64,000 bases of DNA from Incurvaria masculella (Eukaryota > Arthropoda > Insecta > Lepidoptera > Incurvariidae), in NCBI GenBank assembly GCA_946894095.1, contig OX335657.1:4712001-4776000 (forward strand), in the 5' to 3' direction. The notes beneath the pieces are model-generated. The model worked only from the letters and a program-made list of their open reading frames with translations. It searched no databases and was not told the DNA's origin. Each line of letters begins with the position of its first letter. Position 1 is the first letter of the stretch. Of this stretch, positions 52,576-53,598 are shown piece by piece. The position numbers and the translations under genes are program-made.

Positions 52576-52773
52576 GCAAGTCTTTCACGCTGACCATCAC
52601 GCTGGCGACATCACCGCCGCAGGTTGCATCGCTGATGAAGGCCATCAAGGTGACGGTGGACGGACCGCGCGAGCCGCGTTCCAAGACGCGCCACCACGGA
52701 TTCCATCCGTTCCATTTCGCGCCGCGGTTCGCACCTGACCCGCTCATGGGCGGACTACCCTTCAAGCTATCAG
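52576..52773 (+). CDS. Runx: Runx transcription factor, coding exon 3, array copy 1 (end of Runt domain)
   Basis: The exon begins after the acceptor tattattcag (52566-52575) in phase 1, so the junction with exon 2 reads [14 protein letters not shown]. It encodes the end of the Runt domain: [20 protein letters not shown] then [15 protein letters not shown]. The Lys of GKSF and the two Arg of GPREPR, which contact DNA in RUNX1, are present. After the domain comes a Phe/His/Pro-rich stretch ending [11 protein letters not shown] good donor, ctatcag/gtgagc, lies at 52774 (phase 1). If it is not used, the frame runs eight more residues after the split Gly codon to TGA at 52797, which would give a 209-residue protein. 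It is the only copy with a complete 5' half and real acceptor. Four partial copies follow directly. Confidence 0.93.
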
Positions 52774-53004
52774 GTGAGCATTGTGACCGTACCTGCTGAC
52801 GTTAAATTGGCGACGTCGCCGCCGCAGGCTACGTCGCTGATGAAGGCCATCAAGGTGACAGTGGACGGACCGCGCGAGCTGCGCTCCAAGACGCTCCACT
52901 ATGGCTTCCATCCGTTCCACTTCGCACCGCGGTTCGCGCCAGATCCGCTCATGGGCGGGCTACCCTTCAAGCTATCAGGTGAGCATTGCGACCCTACATG
53001 CTGA
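52774..53004 (+). pseudogene. Runt-domain exon, tandem copy 2 (lacks the GKSFTLT start)
   Basis: This second copy is displaced by 205 bp (52808 matches 52603). Homology starts near ctgac at 52795 inside the exon, so the first ~7 codons, GKSFTLT, are missing and are replaced by the sequence that follows the donor of copy 1. The Runt frame stays open from LATSPPQATS through DGPRE to GLPFKLS, then TGA at 53002-53004. Three amino-acid changes hit the basic tail: the EPR motif is ELR, and TRHHG has become TLHYG. The donor ctatcag/gtgagc is kept at 52979. Only an out-of-frame AG (gccgccgcag, 52818-52827) is available as acceptor. I treat it as a duplicated exon fragment, not a proven functional exon. 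Confidence 0.85.
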
Positions 53005-53209
53005 CGTTACATTGGCGACATCGCCGCCGCAGGCTACGTTGCTGATGAAGGCCATTAAGGTGACGGTGGACGGACCGCGCGAGCCGCGCTCCAAGACGCG
53101 CCACCATGGCTTCCATCCGTTCCACTTCGCGCCGCGGTTCGCGCCAGACCCGCTCATGGGCGGGCTAGCCTTAAAGCTATCAGGTGAGCATTGCCACCGT
53201 ACCTGTTGA
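52979..53209 (+). pseudogene. Runt-domain exon, tandem copy 3
   Basis: This is the third copy, again 205 bp further on. The core from [14 protein letters not shown] to PDPLMGGL is identical in protein to copy 1, although eight codons differ, all synonymously. Nearby non-synonymous changes are PQVASL to PQATLL and LPFK to LALK. The donor ctatcag/gtgagc (53184) and the TGA shortly after it (53207-53209) are kept. Both REPR arginines are present. No in-frame acceptor is visible. Confidence 0.85.
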
Positions 53210-53405
53210 CGTTACATTGGCGACGTCGCTCCCGCAGGCTACGTCACTGATGAAGGCCATCAAGGTGACGGTGGACGGACCGCGCGAGCCGCGCTCCAAG
53301 ACGCGCCACCATGGCTTCCACTTCGCGCCGCGGTTTGCGCCAGACCCGCTCATAGGCGGGGTACCCTTCAAGCTATCAGGTGAGCATTGCCAACGTACCT
53401 GTTGA
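53184..53405 (+). pseudogene. Runt-domain exon, tandem copy 4 (9-bp in-frame deletion)
   Basis: The fourth copy is shorter by 9 bp because the codons for His-Pro-Phe in GFHPFHF are gone, leaving GFHF; this explains the 196-bp step to copy 5. Met-Gly-Gly-Leu has become Ile-Gly-Gly-Val. The GPREPR motif, the donor ctatcag/gtgagc (53380) and the following TGA (53403-53405) are intact. The 5' half of the unit is almost identical to copy 5, so these two separated recently or were homogenised. Confidence 0.85.
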
Positions 53406-53598
53406 CGTTACATTGGCGACGTCGCTCCCGCAGGCTACGTCACTGATGAAGGCCATCAAGGTGACGGTGGACGGACCGCGCGAGCCGCGCTCCAAGACGC
53501 GCCACCATGGCTTCCATCCGTTCCACTTCGCGCCGCGGTTCGCGCCAGACCCGCTCATGGGCGAGCTACCTTTCTTCCTTAAGTTCATTAAACAATAA
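53380..53598 (+). pseudogene. Runt-domain exon, tandem copy 5 (last, donor lost)
   Basis: The fifth and last copy keeps the Runt frame through [12 protein letters not shown] and PDPLMGEL. It diverges after ctacctttc near 53573: the next codons read FLKFIKQ and end at TAA 53596-53598. The ctatcag/gtgagc donor found in copies 1-4 is therefore missing. In a tandem duplication the last copy should carry the original right flank. Either that flank was later deleted or replaced here, or the array grew in a more complex way. No Runx-like coding sequence follows in the remaining 10 kb. Confidence 0.82.

Follow-up and report, generated by a model that had tools for sequence, protein, structure and literature searches.

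The window analysed here, a stretch of 64,000 nt, includes the 5′ portion of a plus-strand Runx gene, in which the exon that completes the Runt DNA-binding domain (exon 3) is followed head-to-tail by four further, incomplete copies. The array is real, and with considerable confidence we regard it as a fairly old, inert tandem duplication of part of an exon, neither a cassette of alternative exons nor of nascent origin. In the history that we favor with this confidence, a 205-bp segment that ran from the terminal 171 nt of exon 3 into the following intron, of which it included 34 nt, would have been tandemly duplicated in the Runx gene and amplified to five units, and through a rearrangement at the right edge the last unit would have become fused to a relative of the sequence that immediately precedes exon 3. 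Copy 1, with the sole genuine acceptor, would be the working exon and would use the donor at its own end (52774) for splicing, while copies 2–5 would be removed with the intron, adding nothing to the main protein and evolving under little or no constraint. We infer the order of these events, the use of the copy 1 donor and the non-use of copies 2–5.

The assignment to Runx is based on three exons, 19143–19331, 20691–20907 and 52576–52773, whose joined in-frame translation of 201 residues matches the Pfam Runt profile (PF00853) over positions 4–129 of 129 with an E-value of 9.8e-68. A slightly longer joined translation matches 17 distinct PDB sequences at E-values up to 0.001, the best of them being RUNX1 (1.1e-64). 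These matches support the placement of the array in a Runx gene that had been made in a preliminary description of this DNA. All three exons are on the plus strand. The first coding exon (MHLSSEVSS...GCPHV; choice of ATG inferred) is followed by a GTGAGT donor at 19332; the second Runt exon has the acceptor CGCAG/GTGTGC and a donor at 20908, and ends in phase 1; and exon 3, which holds copy 1 of the array and is the sole complete copy, lies between the acceptor TTCAG/GCAAG and the donor TCAG/GTGAGC at 52774. A C-terminal motif of the VWRPY type is named for runt-domain proteins in the cited part of an insect survey, where each species has four runt-domain genes (PMC2631020). No [VIL]WRP[YFW] is present in the six frames of the window, and the remaining part of the Runx gene is therefore probably located outside it; the gene may extend past position 64000.

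Tandem Repeats Finder (TRF) returns a 205-bp unit in 4.8 copies at 52603–53574, with 90% matches and a score of 1580, which bears out the preliminary description with respect to the head-to-tail arrangement, the count of five copies and the coordinates. The units, all on the plus strand, occupy 52603–52807, 52808–53012, 53013–53217, 53218–53413 and 53414–53574; the first four measure 205, 205, 205 and 196 bp, and the fifth is truncated ahead of the donor. In units 1–4, a part corresponding to the terminal 171 nt of exon 3 is combined with 34 nt of intron behind the donor GTGAGC, and because 205 is 1 mod 3, the reading frame is lost between successive units. Copies 2–5 lack the first 27 nt of exon 3, i.e., the codons for GKSFTLTIT, as well as its 3′ splice site, and the match of copy 5 ends ahead of the donor such that this copy additionally lacks the 5′ splice site. 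Thus, the copies are not the near-complete exons of the earlier account, and the repeated unit spans intron. Copy 2 (donor at 52979) carries the replacements P-to-L, R-to-L and H-to-Y, copy 3 (donor at 53184) S-to-L, P-to-A and F-to-L, and copy 4 (donor at 53380) a 9-bp in-frame deletion together with M-to-I, L-to-V and a P-to-L change that it has in common with copy 5. Copy 1 matches positions 93–129 of the Runt profile and copies 2–5 each match positions 104–129 only (E-values 2.3e-5 to 9.2e-7); the match of copy 2 (E-value 2.3e-5, 24.4 bits) is under the Pfam cut-off of 27 bits, and those of copies 3–5 score 27.1–29 bits, with 9.2e-7 as the lowest E-value. The GC content is 63% in the array compared with 39% in the window, and elsewhere in the window the unit sequence is matched weakly at a single place (23 nt, E-value 0.43).

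The frame consequences of splicing via the extra copies were enumerated. In addition to the donors, the duplicated segment supplies a GT and an AG at each of the four junctions between copies, so that four of four junctions contain a 54-nt GT...AG stretch on the plus strand (52774–52827, 52979–53032, 53184–53237 and 53380–53433), the first of which, between copies 1 and 2, is a candidate mini-intron with a CTGAC branch-like site and a weak pyrimidine tract. If these stretches were spliced, inclusion of copy 2 or copy 3 would lengthen the transcript by 151 nt and inclusion of copy 4 by 142 nt, each 1 mod 3, and the frame would not be kept. Chains with copies 2 and 3, 2 and 4, or 2–4 (or onward into copy 5) stop after 255 residues, and a chain with copy 3 alone or with copies 3 and 4 stops after 209 residues; copy 2 alone or copy 4 alone is open in a shifted frame, with a carry of 2 left in place of 1. 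A direct junction of exon 2 with copy 2, 3 or 4 at CCGCAG shifts the frame, with a stop in the case of copy 3, and if donor 2, 3 or 4 is used, or the sequence is read through, the protein would always end at one shared in-frame stop, which follows residue 209 and lies past the Runt domain. All enumerated routes via the extra copies hence end in a stop or a shifted frame, and no route other than exon 3 alone, spliced from the donor at 52774, was found to preserve a stop-free Runt frame; this presupposes that the next exon takes phase 1, as set by the copy 1 donor. The longest stretch that is invariant in copies 1–4 is the 20 nt around the donor; for the nine invariant donor columns the chance probability is 0.18, which does not indicate selection on the donors.

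As described previously, the copies are open in the Runt frame: copies 2–4 contain no stop ahead of the donor, and in copy 5 the first stop is a TAA at 53598. Open frames are, however, expected without selection and say little, because only 1.2–2.3% of random point changes to the consensus of copies 2–5 create a stop, and the frame stays open through some 21 neutral changes with a probability of 0.61–0.77. Between copy 1 and copies 2–5, 11 coding differences are fixed, nine synonymous and two at the amino-acid level; against a composite consensus of copies 2–5, copy 1 shows 12 synonymous to two amino-acid differences. Under neutrality, about 26–31% of changes are expected to be synonymous, and the probability of nine or more in 11 is 0.0002–0.0008. 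Within copies 2–5, 19 states deviate from the consensus, in which the base at tied positions was picked arbitrarily, nine of them synonymous and 10 changing an amino acid; the synonymous excess is weak here and could reflect weak constraint, which is not established by a test with P = 0.04–0.11, depending on transition bias. The direct contrast of 9:2 with 9:10 is not significant (Fisher P = 0.12). The two fixed amino-acid differences are VA in copy 1 and AT in copies 2–5, and since RUNX1 has VA (PPQVAT) like copy 1, both probably arose on the copy side; when they are placed there, the contrast becomes 9:0 versus 9:12 (Fisher P = 0.004), the synonymous differences being unpolarised in this comparison, which includes no close relative. 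Six of the nine fixed synonymous differences fall beyond the Runt domain (codons 31–50), and the tail of exon 3 therefore looks constrained too.

Synonymous divergence also bears on the age of the array. It amounts to 0.22–0.32 between copy 1 and the others and to 0.05–0.15 among copies 2–5, which suggests that the first duplication is probably not recent and that the later copies, above all copies 4 and 5, are probably younger or have been homogenised. The former values do not support the nascent origin that was considered earlier as one option.

The 41 nt that straddle the right edge of the array (53567–53607, plus strand) find their best match in the window at 52534–52574 on the same strand, i.e., at the 3′ end of the intron before exon 3, with 71% identity and without gaps; the matched sequence ends just before the final G of the exon 3 acceptor. 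When the upstream flank was shuffled 500 times, a score as high as that of this match came up once, and in a comparison of the 41 nt with 2552 windows, each 100 nt long and taken from both strands (four windows around the query having been dropped beforehand), the exon 3 flank ranked best with a score of 30, followed by 26 for the next. In a plain blastn search of 53575–55300 against the window, the match to the exon 3 flank is absent at an E-value of 0.1 or better, and the likeness was spotted first and tested afterwards. We consider it suggestive of a rearrangement footprint in which the exon end was joined to the end of the preceding intron, a junction as in template switching or in the reinsertion of a circular copy.

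Local tandem amplification is common in this window, as seven further places harbor tandem arrays with a TRF score of 329 or more. Two of the eight arrays each overlap one of the three known exons, which is unusual for random placement, as two or more did so in 488 of 20,000 simulations, but this is a weak, after-the-fact test. The second of these is an 81-bp tandem array of 3.6 copies at 18872–19163, the last unit of which extends beyond the presumed Runx start codon (19143) by about 20 nt; of its three earlier units, those at 18900 and 18981 were translated, and the ATG of each opens a 17-codon frame beginning with MHFSS, which resembles the MHLSS of Runx. The arrays off the three exons are located at 3278–3512, 3658–4241, 17508–17766, 22970–23312, 27671–28307 and 28437–28751, with periods of 30–150 bp. 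This stretch of the genome seems prone to tandem amplification.

The surroundings also contain other repeats. About 1.8 kb downstream of the array, the minus strand carries an uninterrupted 350-codon frame of a mariner-type transposase (55391–56443) with matches to Pfam Transposase_1 (E-value 7.3e-26) and HTH_48 (“HTH domain in Mos1 transposase”; 2e-17). A 48-nt sequence at 53703–53750 has five other copies in the window, 77–85% identical and on both strands, and is probably a dispersed repeat; 54183–54337 is an imperfect palindrome of about 155 nt (72%) that could be a small inverted-repeat element, and 51500–51739 matches 14494–14752 in inverted orientation (73% over 263 nt) as a dispersed repeat. 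Open frames within 6353–7541, which we take to resemble pieces of a LINE reverse transcriptase, gave no Pfam match at an E-value of 0.01 (frames 6353–7000 and 7083–7541), and Rfam at gathering thresholds gave zero matches in the window. With a 111-residue Runt query, 20 and 100 pattern stretches were matched in collections of viral and prokaryotic contigs, respectively, none of them a confirmed relative. Among the titles listed from the open-access literature on Runx combined with exon or tandem duplication, Lepidoptera or insects, and on partial tandem duplication of RUNX1, none pointed to such an array.

Among the alternatives to an inert duplication, the one that survives best, although we consider it improbable, is that the extra donors are used. 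Exon 3 would then sometimes be extended to donor 2, 3 or 4, or be read through, and the result would be a shortened Runx protein, complete in its Runt domain but without the C-terminal part, that acts as a RUNX1a-like antagonist, or a transcript destined for nonsense-mediated decay. Donors 2–4 are identical to donor 1 over CAGGTGAGC and the 20-nt surround, the stop after 209 residues is shared by every extension, and the hexamers ATTAAA (53587 and 53949) and AATAAA (54365) are found downstream of the array. However, any retention of this intron would yield the identical peptide, for which the array is not needed, and poly(A)-like hexamers are frequent in AT-rich DNA, with nine of them between 53414 and about 56500; this reading is drawn from genomic sequence. 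A more elaborate version, to which we assign a still smaller chance, would make the array a row of identical 5′ splice sites that sets how frequently exon 3 is extended into an early-stopping frame, with a Runt-only antagonist as the product, and thus a counterpart of RUNX1a of separate origin, created by duplication of an exon edge; the array at 18872–19163 would add upstream start codons, and exon-derived repeats would thereby regulate both ends of the Runt region.

Slightly less probable again is that new introns are forming, such that the 54-nt GT...AG stretches are spliced as mini-introns and chain the copies together. Each stretch has the elements for this, i.e., GTGAGC, a branch-like CTGAC or TTGAC and CCGCAG/G, and intron gain by tandem duplication is on record, including multiple tandem copies in fission yeast genes, in the part of the report cited here (PMC4974935). 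However, each included copy shifts the frame, the chains with two or three of copies 2–4 or with copy 3 alone hit stops, and copy 2 or copy 4 alone leaves the wrong carry. In addition, the pyrimidine tract is weak, and the first 54-nt stretch, the only one folded, is no more stable as RNA than its shuffles (z = −0.08). Spliced aligners are stated, in the cited part of PMC10632439, to create false junctions between repeats from short reads.

An assembly artefact is about as improbable as the formation of new introns. In the assembled sequence, on which this assessment is based, 30 counted states distinguish the copies in their coding parts, i.e., the 11 fixed between copy 1 and copies 2–5 and the 19 within copies 2–5, and the 9-bp deletion sets copy 4 apart in addition. 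With so many differences, split haplotypes or sequencing error are unlikely causes, and the copies can be told from one another during assembly.

The alternative-exon cassette of the preliminary description, of the mutually exclusive kind, is hardly credible: the tandem copies are open in the Runt frame, but copies 2–5 have no acceptor of their own, the sole AG at their front capable of ending an intron (CCGCAG/GCT) is out of phase, the in-phase AG sites listed (eight over copies 2–5) are all internal to the copies, and the codons for GKSFTLTIT are missing. Mutually exclusive exons should each own a 3′ and a 5′ splice site, and of these the acceptor is lacking in copies 2–5 and the donor in copy 5; interchange in phase fails as well, with exon 2 joined to copy 2, 3 or 4 being frame-shifted. 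Of the three options considered originally, inert amplification is best supported, by the loss of splice sites, the substitution pattern and the frame-breaking routes.

The inert duplication is of interest as a clean natural case of tandem duplication across an exon–intron edge in a conserved DNA-binding domain. A constrained copy adjoins less constrained duplicates, and with four identical donors in a row the choice of donor can be tested directly; for protein diversity, the array is probably unimportant.

The array is a real partial-exon tandem duplication in a conserved gene and is most likely inert for the protein. Coding-derived minisatellites are a known kind of repeat, and the array is similar to them in being GC-rich, in having diverged units and in occurring among seven other strong arrays, but differs in that it derives from a Runt-domain exon. 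With the tandem mutually exclusive exons of Dscam, Mhc and other genes, as outlined in the material consulted on them, it shares the head-to-tail exon copies in one gene; unlike those exons, the extra copies here are incomplete, lack an acceptor, are in the wrong phase and, in the last copy, lack the donor. As in intron gain by tandem duplication, in the examples cited from PMC4974935, the duplicated segment crosses a splice boundary and makes new GT...AG pairs between copies, however, the boundary is on the donor side here, there are five copies, splicing between them shifts the frame, and any new intron is putative. Finally, human RUNX1a is a short isoform that antagonises the long forms, and is primate-specific and generated by alternative splicing of exon 7a, according to the cited part of PMC10481493. 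The hypothetical product of the present array would be similar in consisting of the Runt domain without the C-terminal part, but in contrast to RUNX1a it would arise by a predicted extension of exon 3 or by read-through.
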